Of a stretch of DNA of 64,000 bases, positions 8,068 to 38,738 are shown one piece after another. How positions within the stretch are numbered: position 1 is the stretch's first letter; every line of letters begins with the position of its first letter. Position numbers and translations under genes: made by a program. The notes beneath the pieces are model-generated. The model saw only the letters and a list, made by a program, of their open reading frames with translations. It was not told the DNA's origin and ran no database searches. The DNA lies in the NCBI RefSeq assembly GCF_001428545.1, contig NZ_LMHZ01000001.1:186961-250960 (forward strand), in the 5' to 3' direction. The stretch comes from Noviherbaspirillum sp. Root189 (GTDB lineage: Bacteria; Pseudomonadota; Gammaproteobacteria; Burkholderiales; Burkholderiaceae_D).

Positions 8068-8098
8068 CTATCCACAAACCCTGTGGATAACTTTGTGG
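8068..8098. repeat. 31-bp DnaA-box repeat unit, copy 1
   Basis: CTATCCACAAA, two variable bases, then CTGTGGATAACTTTGTGG. The unit contains two head-to-head DnaA boxes separated by 5 bases. It is repeated with two mismatches at 8499-8529, in the same orientation. Confidence 0.85.
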
Positions 8099-8498
8099 AG
8101 AACCGAAGCTTGATCGACAGCAAACCTGAACCAGGCGTGACCCTCCCTTCATAAAGCGTTGGAGAAGAAAAAAATAAAGCGAGTCATTTCAATTACTTAG
8201 GGTGTATCTCTTGGCTCAATGGAATCACTCCACGGAAAAATGCTGTTGCTTTGCACAACTGAGGACGATGACGCAAATTGTGAATAACTCTGTATAAAGC
8301 CGCATTTCCCCTTGACTTTTTCCAGACGGCACTGTCCTTATGGCAATACGTGTGCGCGGGCGTTTTCCTTACAGCATTTTTAGATGCGCCAGGTAATGGG
8401 CCGAGGCGAGAAATTTTCCGGCATTCAGTGACTGGTAGCAACTTAACAGGTTTATGAAGGATCTCCGCTAAGTTCCCGATTTATAAACATTTTTTTAC

Positions 8499-8529
8499 CT
8501 ATCCACAAAGTCTGTGGATAACTTTGTGG
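8499..8529. repeat. 31-bp DnaA-box repeat unit, copy 2
   Basis: Second copy of the 31-bp unit at 8068-8098, differing only at the two bases between the inverted DnaA boxes (GT instead of CC). It is preceded by the AT-rich run TTTATAAACATTTTTTACC, a possible unwinding element. Confidence 0.85.
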
Positions 8530-8772
8530 ACAAGCCCTGTATGACGCCCCGGCAGCCCTGATTTTATGCGGTTTTCAATAGAATGCTAAATTGAAAAGCA
8601 AAAATTCCGTCCTTTAAAATCAATGACTTAGGAAAACCAAAAAGCGGCTATATATTGACGCTCGCACATTCGTTAACGATTTGCACTATCGCAAAAAATG
8701 TGAATAAGCGTCTCATTCCGTCCGGAAGTGTTTCGCCGATGATAGTTGTCCACAGGGGGTTGATAACTTTAT

Positions 8773-9861
8773 TTAATCGCCGCTGCGTTGTGCCCTGCTG
8801 AACTCGTGGACTGCGTCCACCAGCACCGATACGGACTCAGGTGGGGTGAACTGCGAAATGCCGTGACCGAGGTTAAATACATGCCCGTGTCCGGCGGTCG
8901 GCTTGCCGTAAGAATCGAGCAGGTTTTTCACCTGGGTGCGGATCTGGTCGGTGCCGGCGAACAAGACATTGGGATCGAGATTGCCCTGTAAAGCGACCTG
9001 GTGCCCGACACGGGCTCGTGCTTTGCCAAGGTTCACCGTCCAGTCGAGGCCGACCGCATCGGCGCCAATACCGGCAATTTCTTCGAGCCAGAGACCGCCA
9101 CCTTTGGTAAAGACAATTGCCGGAATCTTGACCCCGTCGTGCTCGCGCTTGAGCTGTTGCATAACTTCGCGCATGTAACTCAACGAAAACTGCTGGTAGA
9201 TGCCATCGGCGAGCGCCCCACCCCAGGTATCGAAGATCATCACTGCCTGAGCTCCAGCCTCGATCTGCGCATTCAGGTAAGCGGCGACTGCCGTGGCATT
9301 GGTCTTCAGAATGTGATGCATCAGGTCGGGGCGGTTGTACAGCATCGTCTTGACGGTCCGGAAATCAGCGGAGCCACCGCCTTCGACCATATAGCAGGCA
9401 AGTGTCCATGGGCTGCCGGAAAAGCCGATCAATGGCACGCGGCCAGCCAGTTCGGTACGAATCTGCGTGACCGCATCGAACACGTACTGCAACGATCCGG
9501 CTTCCGGGGTCCGCAATGCCATGACGGCCTTTTCGTCGCGCAGTGGACGCTCAAACTTCGGGCCCTCGCCTTCGGCGAAATACAGGCCGAGGCCCATGGC
9601 GTCCGGCACCGTCAGAATGTCCGAAAACAGGATTGCCGCGTCCAGCGCATAGCGATTCAGCGGTTGCAGGGTCACCTCGGTTGCGTAATCGGGGCTTTTG
9701 GCAAGTCCGAGGAAAGAACCGGCGCGCTTGCGGGTCGCGCAGTATTCCGGCAGGTAGCGGCCGGCCTGGCGCATCAGCCAGAGCGGGGTGTAATCGGTCG
9801 GCTGGCGCAGCAAGGCGCGCAGGAAAGTATCGTTTTTCAGGTGGGCAAATGTGTTCGGCAT
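8773..9861 (-). CDS. hemE: Uroporphyrinogen III decarboxylase (HemE)
   Basis: HemE removes the four acetate carboxyls of uroporphyrinogen III to give coproporphyrinogen III in haem synthesis; it is cytosolic. The 362-aa protein carries the family signature near its N-terminus ([15 protein letters not shown], with the substrate-binding Arg residues) and the second signature [16 protein letters not shown]. Asp in [13 protein letters not shown] and the C-terminal NLGHGI loop are present. The frame could start 20 residues earlier at 9921, but family members begin at the equivalent of [18 protein letters not shown] and are about 355-365 aa, so ATG 9861 is chosen. Neither start has a clear Shine-Dalgarno. 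It is transcribed toward the DnaA-box region and priA. Confidence 0.94.
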
Positions 9862-10019
9862 AAGAGGGGCTTTCTGTGAGCCGCCATTATCGCCGATGCC
9901 GAGGATTTCCTGCGGCTTCATGAGGATTTTGTCCGCGCCAACCTGTCCGATGCGATGCTTCTTAAGGCAATTGTCGTGAACGTCGGCGAAAATTACGTGG
10001 CTGGCTACCCGTGCGGCAA

Positions 10020-20593: not shown

Positions 20594-21496
20594 TCATGCA
20601 GCTTGTTTTTCAGTGCGCAGTTTGGCGATCAGGTCATCAAGCGCATCCAGGTTGGCAAAGTCGATCACCAGCTGGCCCTTGTTCTTGGCACCGAGCTTGA
20701 TTGCGACCTGGGTGGCAAGCAGGTCGGACAACTCTTCCTCGAGCCGGGAAATGTCACGTGACTTTTCCTTGTTGGGGCGCTGCTTGTTGGCCGAGGCCTG
20801 TTCGCTGCCGGCGCGAATGACCAGCTTTTCGGCTTCGCGTACCGACATGCGGCGGGCGACGATCTGGTTGGCGAGCGTGATCTGCGTTGCGGAATCGACG
20901 GCCAGCAACGCACGGGCATGGCCCATGTCGATATCGCCGGCCATCAGCATGGTCTGCACCGGCTTGGCGAGGTTCATCAAACGTAGCAGGTTTGACACCG
21001 CGCTGCGCGAGCGGCCGACCGCGTTGGCTGCCTGCTCGTGTGTGAAGTCGAAATCCGAAATCAGTCGATGAATGCCTTGCGCCTCTTCCAGCGGGTTGAG
21101 ATCTTCGCGCTGGATATTCTCGATCAGCGCCATCGCGGCGGCGGCCTGGTCGTCGACATCCTTGACCAGTACCGGTACTTCCGTCAGGCCGGCGATCTGG
21201 GCGGCACGGAAGCGGCGTTCACCGGCGATGATTTCATATTTGTCGGGTCCCACATGCGCAACCGGACGCACGAGGATGGGTTGCATCAGGCCCTGCGCCT
21301 TGATCGATGCGGCAAGTTCATTCAATGCGCCTTCATCCATGCGTGTGCGCGGCTGGTATTTACCGGCTTGCATCTGCGTGACATTCAGTATCGATGGCGC
21401 GCCGGGCACGGTCGGTACCGCTTCGGCCATGTCGGACGAACCGCCCAGCAAGGCATCAAGCCCACGTCCGAGTCCCTTGGATTTTTTGATAGCCAT
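20594..21496 (-). CDS. parB: Chromosome partitioning protein ParB
   Basis: This 300-aa parS-binding CTPase clamp has the N-terminal ParA-interacting tail (KKSKGLGRGLDALLG) and the ParB/Srx domain with GERRFRAAQ (CTP-binding, near residue 93) and ENIQREDLNPLEEAQG near 125. A helix-turn-helix follows (FTHEQAANAVGRSRSAVSNL near 150-170), then a C-terminal dimerisation domain. It lies 8 bases after parA. Two parS sites lie about 4-5 kb upstream, at 25616 and 26352, so the whole segregation module is local. Confidence 0.97.
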   Translation of the reverse strand: MAIKKSKGLGRGLDALLGGSSDMAEAVPTVPGAPSILNVTQMQAGKYQPRTRMDEGALNELAASIKAQGLMQPILVRPVAHVGPDKYEIIAGERRFRAAQIAGLTEVPVLVKDVDDQAAAAMALIENIQREDLNPLEEAQGIHRLISDFDFTHEQAANAVGRSRSAVSNLLRLMNLAKPVQTMLMAGDIDMGHARALLAVDSATQITLANQIVARRMSVREAEKLVIRAGSEQASANKQRPNKEKSRDISRLEEELSDLLATQVAIKLGAKNKGQLVIDFANLDALDDLIAKLRTEKQAA

Positions 21497-21504
21497 GATC
21501 TGCC

Positions 21505-22275
21505 TTACATTGAATGAATGCGTTCAACCATCTCCGCACCGAATGCGATGTACGCCTGCGCGCCCTTGGACGACGGGTCGAAGGTAACGCCGGGCATGCC
21601 ATAGGAAGGCGCTTCCGCCAGCCGCACATTGCGCGGAATGATGGTCTTGAAAACCTTGTCGCCAAAATGCTGCTCGAGTTGCGCGGAAACCTGCTGCGAC
21701 AGCGTCATGCGCGGATCGAACATCACCCGCAGCAAGCCGATGATCTTGAGATCCGTGTTGAGCTTGGCGTGCACTTTCTTGATGGTGTTGACCAGGTCCG
21801 ACAAGCCTTCGAGCGCATAGTATTCGCACTGCATCGGGATGATGACGCCGTGTGCGGCGCACAGGCCGTTGAGGGTGAGCATCGATAACGCAGGCGGACA
21901 ATCGATCAGTACGAAATCGTATTCGTCGGTGACCAGGGCAATCGCGTCTTTCAGGCGCTTCTCGCGGTTGTCGAGTTCGACCATTTCCACTTCGGCACCG
22001 GCAAGTTCGCGATTGGCCGGCAGGATGTCGAAATTTCCGGTGTCCGATGTCTTGCGTGCGGTCTTGATGTCGGACATCCCAAGCAGGACTTCGTAGACAG
22101 AAGCTTCCAGTTCCGACTTGTTGATGCCCGCTCCCATGGTGGCATTCCCCTGCGGGTCCAGATCGACCAGCAATACGCGCTGCTTGAGCTGTGCGAGTCC
22201 TGCGGCAAGGTTGACGGCAGTAGTTGTTTTGCCGACGCCGCCTTTCTGGTTGGCGACGCAGAATATTTTGGCCAT
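21505..22275 (-). CDS. parA: Chromosome partitioning ATPase ParA (Soj)
   Basis: This 256-aa deviant Walker ATPase drives origin segregation with ParB. The deviant Walker A NQKGGVGKTTTAVNLA is at residues 9-24 with the signature Lys, Walker A' is VLLVDLDPQGNATMG near 35-50, and Walker B is DFVLIDCPPALSML near 120. There is no N-terminal HTH extension, so it is the chromosomal Soj type rather than a plasmid ParA. The gene lies between the LysE exporter and parB. Confidence 0.97.
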   Translation of the reverse strand: MAKIFCVANQKGGVGKTTTAVNLAAGLAQLKQRVLLVDLDPQGNATMGAGINKSELEASVYEVLLGMSDIKTARKTSDTGNFDILPANRELAGAEVEMVELDNREKRLKDAIALVTDEYDFVLIDCPPALSMLTLNGLCAAHGVIIPMQCEYYALEGLSDLVNTIKKVHAKLNTDLKIIGLLRVMFDPRMTLSQQVSAQLEQHFGDKVFKTIIPRNVRLAEAPSYGMPGVTFDPSSKGAQAYIAFGAEMVERIHSM

Positions 22276-22281
22276 TTGTTC

Positions 22282-22914
22282 TTAGTTGGTTGTTAGTTTG
22301 ATGCCGAAGCCAATCAGAAAGATGCCGGCCGCGCGTGATGCGAATGCCGCAATACGGCGATTGCTTGCCAGTCGCTTCGCCGCGGCATTGCCGGCGATGA
22401 CCAGCAGACTGCCATAAAAAAGCGTGCAACAGGAAATCACAGCACCCATCGCGAAGAAAGTTGTTGCGCCCTGCTGTGTTGCCGGATCGATAAACAACGG
22501 GAAGAATGCCATGTAGAACACGATAGCTTTCGGGTTGATGAGGGTGACCAGGAAGCCACGGCGGAAATCGGCGGCGTTGGAAAATGGGATAACCGTGGCA
22601 TCCTTCCCTTCCTTTGTCGTCAGCAGCTTGAAACCGAGCCATGCCAGATAAACCGCGCCCAGGTATTGCAAGCCCTTGAAGAGAACTGGATTGGCCTGCA
22701 ACAGGGCTGCGACACCGAGTGCGGCCAGCAGCATCAGGACCGCGTCGCCGAGCATCAGTCCGATCAGTGAAGCATACCCGCCGCGCAGGCCGTGTCTGCC
22801 CGTGCTGGTAAGCACGCAAAACGTACCGGGGCCGGGCAGCATCAGGAACACCATGGTGGCGGCAATCAGTTGCCAGACATCGGTGATGCCGATGGCGTGA
22901 AAGGCGGCGTTCAT
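22282..22914 (-). CDS. LysE/RhtB family amino acid exporter
   Basis: This 210-aa inner-membrane transporter has about six hydrophobic segments. It shows the family N-terminus ([20 protein letters not shown], residues 24-43, with the PGP motif) and [13 protein letters not shown] near 85, then a characteristic [14 protein letters not shown]-type stretch ([18 protein letters not shown]). Members export amino acids such as threonine or homoserine. Its ATG overlaps the rsmG stop by four bases (ATGA), so it is coupled to rsmG, and it lies 6 bases before parA. An exporter inserted between rsmG and parA is an extra member of an otherwise conserved operon. Confidence 0.92.
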
Positions 22915-23564
22915 GTTTCCCCTTCTCTCTTGATGAAAATAAGGTGCCGCTCTGCCTCCATGCCGGGTACCTGCAACGCTTGGGTGGCAGTGACTTTCCA
23001 GCCGGCCGGCAGTCGCACGATTTCTTCCTGCGGCAGTACGCCCTTGAGGGCGATGAACTGGCCGCCTGGCGCGAGCAAGTGTCCGGACCAGGTGACGAAA
23101 TCCTTGAGCTCAGCGAAAGCGCGCGAGGTGATTACATCGAACGGTGTCGCGACATTCAGTTGCTCGACACGCGCAGTGTAGACGGTCACATTACGCAGTC
23201 CGAGTTCAGCTTTTGCCTGGGTCAGGAATGCGGTTTTCTTATGTACGGTATCGATCATCGATACTTGCATGTCGGGACGCGCAATCGCCAGCACGATGCC
23301 GGGTAGTCCACCGCCGGCGCCGACATCGAGCACATTGTTCGCCTGGCTGAATGCCGGCACGGCAGCGAGTGAATCCAGCAGATGCTGGATCACCATCTGC
23401 GCCGGATCGCGTACTGCGGTCAGGTTGTAGACGGCATTCCATTTTGCCAACAGGCTCAGGTAGTCCATCAATTGATCTGTCTGCGCATCACTGAGTCCGA
23501 GCTGCAAGGCGCCAATGCCATCGGCAAGTATGCGGGTGAGCTGGTCGCGGGAAAAAGCGGTCAT
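22911..23564 (-). CDS. rsmG: 16S rRNA (guanine-N7)-methyltransferase RsmG
   Basis: This 217-aa SAM-dependent enzyme methylates G527 of 16S rRNA. The SAM motif [18 protein letters not shown] lies near residue 78, preceded by the family region [13 protein letters not shown] (near 38). [12 protein letters not shown] near 145 and the C-terminal RHLIFIKR strand complete the fold. It follows mnmG by 12 bases and overlaps the LysE gene by four bases. Confidence 0.96.
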
Positions 23565-23576
23565 CGGCCGGCTTTC

Positions 23577-25502
23577 TCAGGCTACGGCCTGAACCGTGGC
23601 GAAGTCCCTGAATCCGCCCTTTTTCAGGTGCACCAGCAGCAAGGAAATGGCTGCGGGCGTCACGCCGGAAATGCGGGAAGCCTGGCCCAGGGTTTCGGGC
23701 CGGTGCTTGTTCAGCTTTTGCCGTACTTCCACAGACAGGCCGCGCACTTCCATATAGTCAAGCTCCGCTGGCAGCTTCAGGTTTTCGTAGTGATCGTGAC
23801 GCTCGACTTCCTTCGCCTGGCGGTCAATGTAGCCGGCGTATTTGATCTGGATCTGGACCTGTTCCTTGACGGCTTCATCCGTGACACCTGGCCCGGCAAG
23901 GTCCTTGCCGTCGGCGTCTTTCAGACTCATCAGCGTGTCGTAGTCAACATTGGGGCGGCGCAGCAGATCAGTGAGTGCATACTCTCTCTCAATGGCTTTG
24001 CCCAGCACCCGTTCGGCTTCCGCAGAAGGAACGATACGTGGGTTTACCCAAGTCGATTTTAATCGCTCCATTTCACGTGCCACCGCTTCGCGCTTGCGCT
24101 CGAAGATTTCCCACTGCGCATCACTGACACAGCCTAGGGTACGACCGATCTCGGTCAGGCGCATATCGGCATTATCTTCCCGCAGGCTAAGCCGGTATTC
24201 GGCCCGGCTGGTGAACATTCGGTATGGTTCCAGAACGCCCTTGGTGATCAGGTCGTCAACCAGAACGCCCAGATAGGCTTCATCACGGCGCGGCGTCCAG
24301 GCTTCACGTCCCTGCGTTTGCAGGGCGGCGTTCAAACCGGCGAGCATGCCTTGGGCTGCCGCTTCTTCATATCCTGTAGTGCCATTGATCTGGCCGGCAA
24401 AGAACAGGCCCTGAATCGCTTTGGTTTCCAGTGAAGCCTTCAAACCACGCGGATCGAAGTAATCGTATTCGATCGCATAACCGGGGCGAAGGATATGGGC
24501 GTTTTCCAGACCGCGCATGGAGTGCACCAGCTCCAGCTGTACGTCGAAAGGCAAGCTGGTGGAAATGCCGTTGGGGTAAAACTCGTTTGTGGTCAGCCCT
24601 TCTGGCTCCAGAAAGATCTGATGCGCGTTCTTGTCTGCGAAGCGGTGAATCTTGTCTTCGATCGATGGGCAATAGCGCGGCCCTACCCCTTCGATCACGC
24701 CGGTGTACATCGGGCTGCGGTCCAAGCCATTACGGATGATGTCGTGGGTACGCTCGTTGGTATGCGTAATCCAGCAGGGCAACTGTTGTGGATGCATAGA
24801 GGCATTGCCCATGACGGAAAACACCGGGACCGGATCGAGGTCACCGGGCTGCTCTTCCATCACGGAAAAATCAATACTGCGGCCATCAATGCGCGGCGGC
24901 GTACCAGTCTTCAATCGTCCTTGCGGCAGCTTGAGCTCTTTCAGGCGAGCCGACAGAGAAATTGCCGGGGGATCACCGGCGCGCCCAGCCGAGTAGTTGT
25001 TCAAGCCAACGTGAATCTTGCCGTCAAGGAAGGTTCCAGCGGTAAGTACAACTGCGCGGCCGCGGAAGCGGATACCGACCTGGGTGACGGCACCGACGAC
25101 GCGATCACCTTCAACCATCAGGTCATCAACGGCTTGCTGGAACAGCCAAAGGTTTTCTTGGTTTTCCAGGCGATAACGAATGGCTTTTTTATAGAGAATC
25201 CTGTCCGCTTGGGCGCGCGTCGCGCGTACTGCCGGTCCTTTGGACGAGTTAAGAATCCGAAACTGAATACCTGCTTCGTCGGTTGCAATTGCCATTGCTC
25301 CGCCCATGGCATCAACTTCTTTGACCAGATGCCCCTTGCCGATCCCACCAATAGAGGGATTGCAAGACATCTGCCCGAGAGTTTCAATATTGTGGGTCAG
25401 CAGCAAGGTTTTTTGCCCCATGCGGGCAGCGGCCAGCGCGGCTTCGGTGCCGGCATGACCACCGCCGACAACAATAACGTCAAATTCTGTAGGAAAAAGC
25501 AT
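23577..25502 (-). CDS. mnmG: tRNA uridine 5-carboxymethylaminomethyl modification enzyme MnmG
   Basis: This 641-aa FAD enzyme works with MnmE to modify the wobble uridine of tRNAs. The FAD-binding motif is [21 protein letters not shown] at residues 9-29. The two family signatures are [15 protein letters not shown] near 200 and [20 protein letters not shown] near 370. Length matches the family. It heads the operon mnmG-rsmG-LysE-parA-parB, as in many proteobacteria where mnmG lies next to the replication origin. Confidence 0.97.
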
Positions 25503-25615
25503 AGTTCGCCTCGGTGAGACGGTGATGAAAGGAGCCAGCGAAGTGCTGCCGGAGGCGAGATTATACGGGGTTTTTATGGTTGACCGTTGAGCCCTGTATG
25601 CTTTCTACGTCAGTT

Positions 25616-25631
25616 TGTTCCACGTGAAACA
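25616..25631. promoter_or_regulatory. parS-like site, one mismatch
   Basis: TGTTCCACGTGAAACA differs from the universal parS palindrome TGTTTCACGTGAAACA at one base (position 5). It lies between mnmG and the unknown gene 25633-26334, immediately beyond that gene's stop codon. Confidence 0.85.
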
Positions 25632-25632
25632 A

Positions 25633-26334
25633 TCAGAATGGGAGCTTGGCAGCAACAAAACCTGCAATGAAGGCAATGCCGATACCAATACTCCAATACG
25701 GCCAATTAGTTGGGCGTTGTAGCGTTTCTTCTTTGCGCCGTGAGCTTGTGACCGGCTTTGTATGTCGCCGCAACGGTTTGGTTGCTTGGTGCCTGCCTTG
25801 CATGTGTCGTTCCCGTAACTCACTGGTGAGCGAGTCGGCGAGCGCAATATGATGCTCATCCATCGCAAGTTGGACTAGCGGCGGAGTAAACGACTCCCCT
25901 GTCGCGTCGGACGTCGCCGTTTGCAAACTGGCTTCGGGTAGGATTGAGGGATGGGGCACACCGGCACTGATGGTGTCAGTGCGTAACCTTGCCTCACCAA
26001 GTTCTTCTTCTACGTCATGGATAATAATGGTGACTGGATCCAGAGGGTCTTGCTGAAGGAAACGGTCGATAACTGAGCGTTCAACGGCTTCCGGTGACTG
26101 GTCCGCTACCGGCATAAATACTTCAACGATCAACTCCTTCTTGATCAGTGTATTGAAGGCGCGTGCAAATCGCTCATCCCGCAACACTGGAAGTTTTTTC
26201 CGAACATCACTATAGGTCGTAACCCCGTCGACCATAATCAGGACCAAGCGCTCACTCTGTGTCAGACCGTGGCGCTTCTCATGTATCTCTTCGCGCCCGG
26301 TATGCGTCCTTTGAAATATCAAATTGGTATCCAC
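25633..26334 (-). CDS. Unknown protein with C-terminal membrane anchor, flanked by parS sites
   Basis: This 233-aa protein belongs to no family I can name. Residues 1-75 are charged and look like a winged-helix-type fold (HGLTQSERLVLIMVDGVTTY, then RFARAFNTLIKKELIVEV). The middle (about 85-190) is acidic and low-complexity, residues about 190-215 are Arg/Lys-rich (RRHTKPVTSSRRKEE), and the extreme C-terminus is one hydrophobic helix (SIGIGIAFIAGFVAAKLPF), so it resembles a tail-anchored membrane protein with a cytoplasmic, possibly nucleic-acid-binding domain. It sits between two parS sites just upstream of mnmG. A link to segregation is only inference from position. Confidence 0.75.
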   Translation of the reverse strand: MDTNLIFQRTHTGREEIHEKRHGLTQSERLVLIMVDGVTTYSDVRKKLPVLRDERFARAFNTLIKKELIVEVFMPVADQSPEAVERSVIDRFLQQDPLDPVTIIIHDVEEELGEARLRTDTISAGVPHPSILPEASLQTATSDATGESFTPPLVQLAMDEHHIALADSLTSELRERHMQGRHQATKPLRRHTKPVTSSRRKEETLQRPTNWPYWSIGIGIAFIAGFVAAKLPF

Positions 26335-26351
26335 CTTTGTTGCTCCCTTTA

Positions 26352-26367
26352 TGTTTCACGTGAAACA
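26352..26367. promoter_or_regulatory. parS site (exact)
   Basis: TGTTTCACGTGAAACA, a perfect 16-bp match to the bacterial parS palindrome. It lies 18 bases upstream of the start codon of the unknown gene at 25633-26334, so ParB binding here could also affect that gene's expression. Confidence 0.95.
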
Positions 26368-34828: not shown

Positions 34829-35048
34829 TCTAGTAGTTGATATATACGAATAGTAATAATGGTTAACGTCCGTCACGGTCTGTGGATAAGCCCGGTTAAC
34901 CCTGCACAATCAATCGCTTGGCGAATGCACAGCTAATTGGACAAACGGTGTATTGGCGAAGGATGGATTCGGGATAAAAAAACGGCTTCATCTTTTTTCA
35001 CAGTTGTCCCGTTTACATCCAGCGGCTGTCCATAGACTTATCCACAGG
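34829..35048. repeat. Left arm of a large origin-like inverted repeat
   Basis: About 220 non-coding bases whose reverse complement resembles 37652-37877. Blocks shared in the same order are TAGTTGATATATAC with AATAGTA (34835-34855), GTTAAC, TGTGGATAA (exact DnaA box, 34881-34889), GGGATAAAAAA-CGGCTT (about 34970-34988), and a 45-bp block at 35004-35048 with only two mismatches that ends in TTATCCACAGG (exact DnaA box 35038-35046). Read on the minus strand, the 34889 box is followed after 20 nt by ATTATTACTATT and TATATATCAAC, resembling a DnaA-trio plus an unwinding region. Confidence 0.85.
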
Positions 35049-35132
35049 GCCAAAAAACCACAGGAAGACCGTTCCGCACGGCAGGCACAGAGGGAATGGC
35101 CGGTGTGCCCTTCCCTCACGTGCATCATTAAC

Positions 35133-36641
35133 TTATTTCGCCACCGGCATCGTGAATTCCGCCCCCTTGCCGATCGAATCGGGCCAGCGCTGCATCACCG
35201 ATTTGTAACGGGTATAGAAACGAATGCCTTCTTCACCATATGCATGGGTATCGCCGAACAGCGAACGCTTCCAGCCGCCAAAGGAATGCCATGCCATCGG
35301 CACCGGAATCGGGACGTTGATGCCGACCATGCCGACTTCGATGCGGCGCGAGAATTCACGTGCGGTATTGCCATCGGACGTGAAGAGGGCAACGCCATTG
35401 CCGAATTCATGGCCGTTGATCAACTGCACCGCCGACGCAAAATCAGGCACGCGCACCACACACAGCACCGGACCAAAGATTTCTTCCTTGTAAATCGTCA
35501 TGTCGGGGGTGACATGGTCAAACAGCGAACCGCCGAGGAAGAAGCCGTTTTCATGTCCGGCCACTTTCAGGCCACGGCCATCGACCAGCAGCTTGGCGCC
35601 GGCCTGCACGCCATCAGCGATGTAACCTTCAATCTTTGCCTTGTGCTGGGCGGTGACCACCGGTCCCATTTCGGCTGCGGCTTCCATGCCGTTCATGACC
35701 TTCAGCGCCTTGACGCGGGGGATCAGCGCTTCGATCAGCTTGTCGGCGACACTGCCGACCGCCACCGCCACCGAGATCGCCATGCAGCGCTCGCCAGCCG
35801 AGCCGTAAGCCGCGCCCATCAGCGCATCGACCGCCTGATCCAGATTGGCGTCCGGCATCACGACCAGATGATTTTTCGCGCCGCCCAGCGCTTGCACACG
35901 CAGCGGATACGGACCTTTGCGCTTCGCGCCCTCTGTGTAGATGTATTCGGCAATCGGTGTCGAACCGACAAAGGACACCGCATTCACGGAAGGATGATGC
36001 AGCAGCGCGTCGACGGCCACCTTGTCGCCCTGGACCACATTGAATACGCCATCCGGCAAGCCGGCACGCTTCAACAGATCGGCCACCATCAGGGATGGCG
36101 ACGGATCGCGCTCGGAAGGCTTGAGGATGAAGGTGTTACCGGTGGCGATTGCCATCGGCGCCATCCACATCGGCACCATGAAAGGAAAATTGAATGGCGT
36201 GATACCGGCAGTCACGCCTAGCGGCTGGCGCAATTGCCAATTGTCGATGCCACCGCCAATGTTGTCGGTGAACTGGGTCTTCAGCAGCTGCGGAATGCCG
36301 CAGGCGAACTCGACCACTTCCAGCCCGCGCGTGACTTCGCCCTTTGCATCCGAAAACACTTTGCCATGCTCACGCGTAATCGCGGCGGCGAGATCGTCAT
36401 GATGCTCTTCGATCAATTCCTTGAACTTGGACAGGATACGGGCACGCTTGAGCGGCGCGGTATCGGCCCAGGCCGGTGCTGCCGCCTGGGCGGCCGAGAC
36501 AGCGGCATGGACTTCCTCTTGGCTGGCCAGCACGACCTGTGCGCTGACCTCGCCGGTGGCCGGATTGAAGACATCTTGTTTCCGGCCGCTGGTCGATTCA
36601 ACGGTGCGACCACCGATATAGTGCTGGATAAGCTGCGTCAT
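35133..36641 (-). CDS. mmsA: CoA-acylating methylmalonate-semialdehyde dehydrogenase
   Basis: This 502-aa ALDH-family enzyme oxidises methylmalonate semialdehyde to propionyl-CoA (or malonate semialdehyde to acetyl-CoA) in valine, thymine or inositol breakdown. The start ATG 36641 has AAAGGAA upstream; the frame's earlier start at 36704 is not supported. Key features are [19 protein letters not shown] near residue 142, catalytic Cys286 in [12 protein letters not shown], and the MmsA-specific ending [20 protein letters not shown]. The classical catalytic Glu of ALDHs is absent, as expected for CoA-acylating members. It is divergent from a LysR gene and lies between the inverted-repeat arms. 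Confidence 0.95.
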
Positions 36642-36748
36642 AAGGATTCCTTTGGCAAATTCACGATTTTCGACAGAATACCGCGCAACAACAGCGAAGG
36701 CCAATCAGTTATTATCAACTTGATATAAGAACTATTTATGATGCTGCC

Positions 36749-37624
36749 ATGGACCTCACCCAGCTACGCGCCTTTGTCACCGTCGCCCGCGAAGGCAACC
36801 TGACACGCGCGGCCGAGCGCCTGCACCTGACCCAGCCGGCGGTCAGCCTGCAAATCAAATCCTTGCAGGCCAGCCTCAATCTCCAGCTATTTCATCGTAC
36901 GCCGAGCGGCATGTCGCTGACCGATGACGGCGCCAAACTGCTGCCCTTCGCCGAAAGGGTGATGGAAAGCGTCGCTGAATTTCGCCAGGGCGCTGCGGCA
37001 CTGCATTCGACGCTGTCAGGCACGCTGGCGATCGGCACCATCCTCGACCCGGAATTCATCCGGCTCGGCGCTTTCCTGAAACGGCTGGTGGAAACTTATC
37101 CACAGCTATCAACCCAGTTGCAGCAAGGCATGTCCGGGTGGGTGCTGCAGCAAGTGCGTTCCGGCACGCTCGACGTCGGTTATTACCTCGGCACGCCCGG
37201 CAAGGAATTTCATTCACAAACCCTGACCACCTTCACCTACAACGTCGTCGCGCCCAAGGGATGGAAAAACCGGGTCGCCGGCAAAGGCTGGGAAGCGCTG
37301 GCGCAACTTCCCTGGATCTGGACGCCGCCGGAATCCGCCCATTACCGCCTGCTGACCAAGACCTTCGCCGAGTTCAAAGTGCAACCGAACAAGGTGGCAC
37401 TGGTCGACCAGGAAATGTCCATGCTCGACCTGGTGAAGTCCGGCGTCGGCCTCTCACTGATCCGGGAATCAATCGCTCTGCGAGAAGCGCATGCGCATGG
37501 TTTGGTGATCGCCGACCGCGTCAGCCTGTCCACGGAACTGTCCTTCATTGCCTTGGCAAAGCGGAAACAGGAACCCACTATTGCAGCCACATTCGCTTTA
37601 TTGCAGGCGCTTTGGCCGCATTAA
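36749..37624 (+). CDS. LysR family transcriptional regulator
   Basis: This 291-aa protein has the N-terminal winged HTH MDLTQLRAFVTVAREGNLTR with AAERLHLTQPAVSLQIKSLQ, and a C-terminal periplasmic-binding-like effector domain (from about residue 90). It is divergent from mmsA (107-bp gap), so it probably controls mmsA, with the usual LysR activation in response to a pathway metabolite; the effector is unknown. Its coding sequence contains an exact DnaA box (TTATCCACA at 37096-37104). Confidence 0.92.
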   Translation: MDLTQLRAFVTVAREGNLTRAAERLHLTQPAVSLQIKSLQASLNLQLFHRTPSGMSLTDDGAKLLPFAERVMESVAEFRQGAAALHSTLSGTLAIGTILDPEFIRLGAFLKRLVETYPQLSTQLQQGMSGWVLQQVRSGTLDVGYYLGTPGKEFHSQTLTTFTYNVVAPKGWKNRVAGKGWEALAQLPWIWTPPESAHYRLLTKTFAEFKVQPNKVALVDQEMSMLDLVKSGVGLSLIRESIALREAHAHGLVIADRVSLSTELSFIALAKRKQEPTIAATFALLQALWPH

Positions 37625-37651
37625 GGTGTGGACGGGTGTCGGCGTCTTTCG

Positions 37652-37877
37652 CCTGTGGATAAGTCTATGGACAGCCGTTGGACGTAAACGGGACAAGCAG
37701 AGAAAAGAACAAAGCCGATTTTTTTATCCCCGATCTGTCCGTCACAGATACAAGCCTTATCCGCGTCCTTATGCGCATCGCAAGCACTTGATCCGTAAAC
37801 GGTTTACCCGCTTATCCACAGAAACATGGCTGTGTTAACAACTACTACTATTTGTATATATCAACTACAAGGTAAAC
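37652..37877. repeat. Right arm of the large origin-like inverted repeat
   Basis: Reverse-complement counterpart of 34829-35048. It contains exact DnaA boxes at 37654-37662 (minus orientation) and 37812-37820 (plus orientation). After the second box come 20 bases, then ACTACTACTA (37841-37850) followed by TTTGTATATATCAACTAC. The box, spacer, DnaA-trio-like repeat and AT-rich order matches the bacterial basal unwinding system. The 45-bp block 37652-37696 differs from the left arm at two positions. Confidence 0.85.
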
Positions 37878-37976
37878 CAACCCCTTCCTTTTTTATCGGC
37901 TGCGGCCGGCAGTCTGCCGCCTGAAAGCCAAACCCCGGCACAATGTCGGTTTTGAATGTTTTAAAAGGAAACATTG

Positions 37977-38738
37977 ATGACGGTTGGATTTCCGCGCCTC
38001 GGAATCATCAGTGCGCTGCATCAGGAGCAGGCCGGCCTGATCGATCTCATGCACAACAAGTCAACCCTGACACGCGGCATGCGGGAATACACCAGCGGGC
38101 GCCTGGAAAATACCGACACGGTCTGCGTGCTGTCACGCATTGGCAAGGTCGCGGCTGCGGCAACTGCCGCCACGCTGATCGAACACTTCGACGTTACGCA
38201 CGTCGTCTTTACCGGTGTGGCAGGCGCGACGGATGAATCGGTACAGGTCGGCGACATCGTGGTAGCAGACGCCCTGGTACAGCACGACATGAATGCCTCA
38301 CCGCTCTTTCCGCGTTTTGAAATCCCCTTGTTGGGCCAGTCTCACTTCGCCAGCGACTTGTCGTTGACTGAACAATTGCTCAGCGCGGCACAAAGTTTTG
38401 TCGAGCAGGATCTGGGCAATGTACTCAGTGAACAGGACCGTATGCAATTTCGCCTGGAGCGGCCGCGTGTGCATCGCGGGTTGATCGGCAGCGGCGACGA
38501 ATTTATCCACAACAGGGATAGGCGTGAGTTACTGCGCAGGCAGTTTCCGGATTTGCTGGCTGTGGAAATGGAAGGCGGCGCGGTTGCGCAAGTCTGCTTC
38601 GAGTTCGGTGTGCCGTTTGCAGTCATACGCACCATTTCCGATGGAGCCAATGAAGGTGCGCCGCATGACTTCATGCAATTCATCGAACGCGTCGCTTCAC
38701 GGTATGCATTCGCCATCGTGCGCCGCTTATGTGGCTAG
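37977..38738 (+). CDS. mtnN: 5'-methylthioadenosine/S-adenosylhomocysteine nucleosidase
   Basis: This 253-aa enzyme cleaves MTA and SAH to adenine plus the thioribose product, recycling methyl-cycle by-products. The start ATG 37977 has AAAAGGAA upstream. Family features are LGIISALHQEQAGLIDLM, TGVAGATDESVQVGDIVVAD near residue 80, VEMEGGAVAQVCFEFGVPF (catalytic Glu region) near 200, and RTISDGAN (catalytic Asp) near 222. An exact DnaA box occurs inside the gene at 38513-38521. It is a monocistronic plus-strand gene directly right of the inverted-repeat arm. Confidence 0.9.
   Translation: MTVGFPRLGIISALHQEQAGLIDLMHNKSTLTRGMREYTSGRLENTDTVCVLSRIGKVAAAATAATLIEHFDVTHVVFTGVAGATDESVQVGDIVVADALVQHDMNASPLFPRFEIPLLGQSHFASDLSLTEQLLSAAQSFVEQDLGNVLSEQDRMQFRLERPRVHRGLIGSGDEFIHNRDRRELLRRQFPDLLAVEMEGGAVAQVCFEFGVPFAVIRTISDGANEGAPHDFMQFIERVASRYAFAIVRRLCG

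Follow-up and report, generated by a model that had tools for sequence, protein, structure and literature searches.

The partition complex of bacterial chromosomes forms by ParB loading at parS, and HubP and TipN are organisers of the origin or the pole. The positioning of the chromosome origin is well understood in few bacteria. We know of no organiser of the PopZ, HubP, TipN or DivIVA type that is encoded between parS sites. The available part of PMC7022226 lists PopZ and DivIVA among the contacts of ParB and also describes ParB, for some species, as regulating the transcription of a restricted set of genes. RocS of Streptococcus pneumoniae, according to the accessible portions of PMC7022226 and PMC11500499, contains a winged helix-turn-helix domain and a C-terminal membrane helix and interacts with ParB. 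The excerpt of PMC11500499 further describes an amphipathic MinD-like anchor helix, a coiled coil and a DUF536-type region in this protein.

We analyzed a 64,000-nt stretch of the Noviherbaspirillum sp. Root189 genome (the window) and located in it a parS-nested gene without an annotated family at positions 25633-26334 of the minus strand. The gene starts with GTG and encodes a protein of 233 aa, in agreement with the earlier note, which had described such an open reading frame inside a parS pair. As read from the sequence, GGGAG (26343-26347, minus strand), 8 nt ahead of the GTG, is a likely Shine-Dalgarno element. The distal parS is an exact TGTTTCACGTGAAACA (26352-26367) and lies in the divergent region shared with the Fe-ADH gene. 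The proximal parS, TGTTCCACGTGAAACA (25616-25631), has one mismatch; 1 base separates it from the preceding stop codon, and 129 bp from the start of mnmG. Both sites were thus as the earlier note had described them, the second directly behind the gene, except that we counted 17 and not 18 bases from the distal site to the start codon. When up to 3 mismatches were allowed, just these two sites were found in the window (0.17 expected), and two or more were found in 1 out of 100 shuffles. The genome of Root189 (6,147,767 bases in 90 contigs) contained only two parS with up to 2 mismatches, 736 bp apart, one on each side of the gene. Nine more sites were found with 3 mismatches, giving a total of 11 as compared to 17 in a reversed-pattern control; these 3-mismatch sites show no excess over chance. 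We also considered whether the parS assignment itself was due to chance and rejected this on the basis of the shuffles and of the genome-wide counts with the reversed-pattern control.

The gene is upstream of, and codirectional with, mnmG (gidA; 23577-25502; PF01134), the first downstream gene, which is followed on the same minus strand by rsmG (gidB; 22911-23564; PF02527), a LysE-type translocator gene between rsmG and parA (22282-22914; PF01810), parA (21505-22275; PF13614) and parB (20594-21496; PF02195, PF17762 and PF23552). The Fe-ADH gene is divergent on the opposite side. A TATAAT at 25560-25565 (minus strand) is the likely -10 element of the mnmG operon, and visual inspection showed the same element ahead of mnmG in relatives. 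A promoter and terminator scan of the gene region gave no terminator and only a weak promoter-like motif (26441-26414) at the level of chance (1 found vs. 1.1 expected). The distal parS, 17 bases ahead of the start codon, falls between this motif and the Shine-Dalgarno element. Such a position would suit a gene whose promoter and body come to be covered by ParB and whose expression simply follows the partition complex while its protein has another job, in the envelope or in signalling, and the regulatory activity of ParB in some species (available part of PMC7022226) is in line with this reading. In view of the distribution of the gene given below we consider it unlikely, though a serious rival. 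Elsewhere in the window, two clusters of DnaA-box-like TTATCCACA/TTATTCACA motifs were noted, one at 8082-8699 adjoining a URO-D gene (8773-9921) and the other at 34881-38503 around a GMC-oxidoreductase/LysR region.

When 116 genomes of the window's family were searched with profile A1, the outcome was bimodal. Thirteen genomes matched at an E-value of 6.6e-62 or better, while 48 had weak matches only (8.5e-10 or worse), which covered about 40-90 N-terminal residues. The gene was bracketed by two parS with at most 1 mismatch in 11 of the 13 strong-match genomes and was not in the other 2. Since 103 of the 116 genomes had no strong match, the gene is dispensable at the scale of the family. An alignment scan of genome contigs identified 19 homologue loci, in Noviherbaspirillum (denitrificans, autotrophicum, aridicola and galbum), Herbaspirillum sp. 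ST 5-3, MAGs, Undibacterium terreum and two other Undibacterium, Oxalobacteraceae IMCC9480, Parvibium lacunae, Keguizhuia sedimenti, Derxia lacustris and Derxia gummosa; the same contigs queried with the single protein gave no homologue. Many of these genomes overlap with our G-numbered set, and loci were inspected in part of the 116 family genomes. Altogether, an ortholog was found in 25 genomes of the family, and in 23 of them it was located between two parS upstream of mnmG-rsmG-parA-parB. The co-occurrence with flanking parS that the earlier note had raised was therefore seen in all but two ortholog-bearing family genomes. Noviherbaspirillum accounted for 12 of the bracketed cases (gene present in 12 of 15 genomes and bracketed in 12 of 12, with G510 split over two contigs), IMCC9480-type genomes for three (3/3) and Parvibium for one (1/1). 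In Undibacterium, at least 7 of 43 genomes carried the gene, bracketed in all 7. Six of these passed E <= 1e-20; the seventh, G515 (E 5e-13), was missed by this threshold and spotted via its parS spacing, so that 7/43 is a lower bound, and among the other 36 Undibacterium genomes the locus was inspected in nine. The 23 bracketed cases share ancestry and are therefore not independent. Exactly two parS with up to 1 mismatch were present in 22 of the 23 bracketed genomes, and three were present in G258.

The two remaining orthologs of the family were relocated. The copy of Keguizhuia sedimenti (G220) is 37 kb from the genome's own parS pair, and in a MAG (G213) the gene and parS are on different contigs. 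By eye, at L126:4207-6177, the relocated copy of K. sedimenti adjoins a gene for a PP2C-like phosphatase. Homologues away from parS, which the earlier note had named as evidence against a role at the origin, were common for the N-terminal domain only: none of 37 loci weakly matching this domain had a parS with up to 2 mismatches within up to 1.5 kb on each side, and two true orthologs, the relocated copies, were located elsewhere. Outside the family, the gene was found in two Derxia genomes (74 genomes searched in the Derxia family) and two Burkholderiaceae MAGs. These copies are directly upstream of the parS-mnmG region. No parS was seen upstream of them, with the contig of one MAG (L170) ending just before the gene, and the parS sites near L171 and L172 carry 2 mismatches. 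In the wider order, a strong match was present in 3 of 399 genomes (the window's own, G279 and the Derxia genome G058), and 9 further genomes matched at E <= 1e-8, in the N-domain only. Linkage to parS and parAB is conserved across genera, with the two copies elsewhere as exceptions. The two orthologs away from parS, together with related N-domains that occur off parS in proteins without a tail anchor and may serve other jobs, agree with the idea that the gene is merely regulated by ParB. On the other hand, bracketing was kept in 23 of 23 family genomes with the gene at the locus, despite fast divergence of the protein.

We compared 80 unique loci with an mnmG start, of which 27 were gene-bearing and 53 gene-less. 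At 22 gene-bearing loci both parS were on one contig; the remaining five comprised two Derxia loci, two MAG loci and L169, which is one half of the split G510. The parS-parS spacing at these 22 loci was 620-1073 bp, and the parS nearest to mnmG was 103-161 bp ahead of the matched mnmG start. The stop codon ranged from 12 bp inside the proximal parS to 51 bp short of it, and was within 4 bp or overlapping in 11 of 22. In N. galbum, an assumed in-frame ATG start reads through the distal parS (MFHVKH; L159:2419-2436), so this parS may fall within the coding sequence. Among the gene-less loci, 33 of 53 had at least two upstream parS with up to 1 mismatch and 20 had one or none. Their spacings (n=34) were 37-191 bp except for two, of 638 and 844 bp, which span a TSUP-type gene or its degenerate remains, and the nearest parS (n=50) was 68-256 bp before mnmG, with one at 444. 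Spacings of 191, 79 and 110 bp were found in three gene-less genomes of the genus Noviherbaspirillum, and of 51-110 bp in the nine inspected Undibacterium without the gene. The gene thus occupies the space between two sites that many relatives retain without it. In G214, a gene that we take to be TSUP/TauE-SafE-like lies between the parS sites in place of the studied gene (L124:4933-5772), and G306 carries a degenerate relative of it there (L108:4740-5399). In other lineages (L093, L094, L096, L098, L103, L113 and L174), mnmG is itself largely bracketed, as a second parS lies within its 3' part or close to it.

These observations bear on whether an old gene came to lie between two parS by chance and was then passed on by vertical descent and repeatedly lost, with no tie to ParABS. 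The retention of at least two parS at 33 of 53 gene-less loci and the bracketing of other genes (the TSUP-type gene in L124 and mnmG in several) would be expected under this view. In addition, no ParA or ParB column separated gene-bearing from gene-less genomes in at least two of three groups (40 rows, tblastn-matched parts), i.e., there was no co-variation with the presence of the gene. The N-domain tree also favors this view in that the Undibacterium, IMCC9480-type, Derxia and MAG rows each formed one group, but the 11 Noviherbaspirillum rows were not united and needed five changes, in a tree of a short domain with unsettled bootstrap. However, none of the 23 family copies at the parS-mnmG locus had lost either parS, and the stop codon was at most 51 bases from the proximal parS in 22 of 22 loci measured, with an overlap in one. 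We therefore regard purely positional inheritance as unlikely, though as serious a rival as regulation by ParB of a gene with another job. In a quick MnmG tree of 58 rows, in which 17 of 55 inner branches were unresolved, no fewer than 4 changes were required to account for the bracketed state, and starred branches forced 3 of these. The tree kept Noviherbaspirillum, Undibacterium, IMCC9480-type and Parvibium rows apart from one another and placed those of Derxia and the MAGs in one starred group. An old gene that was lost many times seems the simplest reading, and horizontal moves may be an alternative.

The protein of the window was 31-55% identical to those of congeners, as compared to 90-93% for MnmG. 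Of 14 homologue pairs, 6 allowed dN/dS to be measured over the whole protein (0.07-0.26); for the first 110 codons it was 0.03-0.12, with 0.26 for Derxia. These values are rough, since synonymous sites were saturated in the other 8 pairs and close to saturation in several of the six. The protein is under purifying selection. A spurious open reading frame was also considered and was rejected on the grounds of this selection and of conservation.

AlphaFold2 with 16 homologues predicted a strand, four helices, a strand and then a helix for residues 1-90 (pLDDT block means 90-97). Further helices were predicted at 160-184 and, at the end of the protein, at 211-230, and confidence was low at 120-155 and 189-206. 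Residues 1-75 (26110-26334; this and the following segments on the minus strand) correspond to the predicted winged-helix-like domain with the signature LTQSERLVLIxVDG (pLDDT block means 90-97). Residues 86-104 (RSVIDRFLQQDPLDPVTII; 26023-26079), across which the pLDDT drops from 93 to 54, contain a stretch (FLQQDxLDPVTI) that is conserved in the 16 homologues of A2 and is a candidate interaction site. Invariant positions in A2 include R9, T10, G13, K20, LTQSER (24-29), R55, F92, Q95, D99 and P100. Both LTQSER and FLQQDxLDPVTI were lost or degenerate in G515, G539 and G541, which are diverged, bracketed Undibacterium copies outside A2. The linker is variable, and acidic in most homologues though not in Derxia. 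Its predicted helix at residues 160-184 (25783-25857; pLDDT about 80 at 161-180) has, by eye, a similar segment in several Noviherbaspirillum homologues. A basic patch (residues 182-201; 25732-25791) precedes the single C-terminal hydrophobic helix, the predicted tail anchor (residues 211-230; 25645-25704). The most hydrophobic window of the protein was C-terminal in 16 of 16 A2 rows and in 20 of 21 rows measured, G508 being the exception, and only 0-10 residues followed it in the A2 rows. The 25 residues preceding it carry a net charge of +4 in the window protein and a net positive charge in 11 of 16 A2 rows, which suggests a cytoplasmic N-terminus. The N-domain itself was near neutral, with a net charge of -4 to +4 (21 rows).

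The winged-helix-like front, acidic middle, basic patch and C-terminal membrane helix of the earlier note are thus backed by the structure prediction and by hydrophobicity and charge. Its description of the protein as membrane-anchored and DNA-linked is supported for the anchor but not for the DNA link, as the domain is near neutral and resembles winged helices that do not bind DNA at least as much as it does MarR. A membrane-bound transcription regulator of the ToxR/CadC type, acting on neighbours such as the operon of mnmG and parAB or the divergently oriented Fe-ADH gene, would likewise combine a winged-helix-like domain with a single membrane helix, and the gene does sit between divergent genes in Noviherbaspirillum. 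We find such a regulator highly improbable: the few residues past the hydrophobic window leave no periplasmic sensor, the domain is not basic, and the upstream neighbour varies from Fe-ADH in Noviherbaspirillum to the end of a TSUP-type gene in Undibacterium (by eye).

No family was matched in Pfam, NCBIfam or PDB sequences at the cut-offs used, which for Pfam were E <= 0.1 for the window protein and E <= 0.01 for the 16 homologues. The sole Pfam line for the window protein was a sub-threshold U-box (15.5 vs. 21.4 bits). None of the 16 members matched a MarR or HxlR profile above the curated cut-off; one matched HxlR at E <= 0.01 with 19.9 bits against a cut-off of 20.8. Foldseek against the PDB gave no match at E <= 0.001. 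The best Z of VIA-align was 7.7, and all were below 8, the tool's guide; by the tool's own note, a Z this low may reflect a common arrangement only. The look-alikes were chains of the GATOR1/SEA complex, which we take to be NPRL2/NPRL3, together with MccB and TruD (Z 6-8), while MarR scored lower (Z about 5). The predicted winged-helix fold alone is insufficient to assume DNA binding.

A folded domain, a flexible linker and a tail anchor, along with the precedent of RocS, favor a membrane adaptor of the partition complex. Our preferred reading, to which we give a probability of about 0.4, is that its product is a tail-anchored accessory of chromosomal ParABS, RocS-like in function. Because the gene lies between two parS, established ParB-parS biology predicts that ParB loads on both its sides each time a partition complex assembles. 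ParB clamps from both flanking sites would then cover the gene and let the state of the complex set how strongly it is expressed. The N-domain would be in the cytoplasm and bind the ParB-parS complex, ParA or origin DNA, and newly loaded partition complexes would thereby be kept at the membrane or led along it. Location and architecture make a tether for the ParB-origin complex plausible. A fuller version, in which the tether is made under ParB control, inserts into the membrane near its own centromere, grips ParB-parS or ParA with the winged-helix-like domain and FLQQDxLDPVTI, and links origin and envelope in Betaproteobacteria, appears to us unlikely as a whole. An accessory role is supported by the flanking of the gene by the only two genomic parS, by bracketing in 23 of 25 genomes from four groups with fast divergence, by purifying selection, by the C-terminal anchor and by the Derxia and MAG copies that precede parS-mnmG. 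It is opposed by the dispensability of the gene, the two relocated copies, the Derxia and MAG copies with no upstream parS seen, the lack of ParA/ParB co-variation, and a near-neutral domain closest to GATOR1/SEA and MccB rather than MarR. Also opposing it are the loss of FLQQD and LTQSER in three bracketed Undibacterium copies, the different place of the hydrophobic window in G508, and the parS bracketing of a TSUP-type gene (L124) and of mnmG.

We consider the gene an unproven candidate for connecting the chromosome origin to the membrane. A family that is kept between two parS across four groups of relatives, though fast-changing and often absent, makes this candidate specific and testable. 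Two genera offer natural pairs of species with and without the gene, in which its effect on ParB spreading and origin position could be followed; the same pairs contrast a parS spacing of about 60 with one of about 750 bp. No description of the gene was found in the literature searched by title and abstract openings, where an earlier mention is possible, and the available part of PMC4948915 contained nothing on it.

Among proteins of the same order, sequence similarity over roughly residues 1-75 was found to an unnamed Burkholderiales N-terminal winged-helix domain (F.KT..G.EEI..R...L....R..LILVDG); the proteins inspected by eye are without FLQQDxLDPVTI and have other C-termini. At L006, L011 and L014 this widespread N-domain is, by eye, fused to a linker, a membrane helix and an apparently AsmA-like C-terminus, and no parS was found at these loci of other Burkholderiales. 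The MAG homologues (L170:6-1937 and L171:1162-3081) are about 640 aa long and extend some 390 residues past the membrane helix. This C-terminal part is presumably AsmA-like; it had no Pfam match, and the predicted structure of the 639-aa homologue had a mean pLDDT of 36. The N-domain of MccB (Z 7.1) and TruD (Z 6.2), which we take to be PqqD/RRE-type peptide-binding winged helices, have a similar winged-helix arrangement. No Pfam match to PqqD was found in the window protein or the 16 homologues, and a scan of the neighbours revealed no RiPP genes. The available part of PMC12710340 defines an RRE by three strands followed by three helices, whereas the studied domain is predicted as strand, four helices, strand. 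The proposed role of holding ParB-parS at a cell site is shared with PopZ, HubP, TipN and DivIVA, families of which type were not matched in the Pfam scans of the window protein and its homologues. Like RocS, the studied protein has a predicted N-terminal winged helix, a middle region and a C-terminal membrane anchor. It differs from RocS in its hydrophobic helix and mostly acidic linker, and no DUF536 match was found in the window protein or the 16 homologues, assuming that the Pfam model is listed under this name. The terminal helix of the window protein has a mean hydrophobicity of 0.72 and a moment of 0.04, and so is not amphipathic in the way of the RocS anchor. Judged by sequence, the protein is outside the RocS family. 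The layout of a winged helix, a membrane anchor and a ParB contact is already known from RocS; what is new, to our knowledge, is that a gene is retained between the sole two parS of its chromosome.
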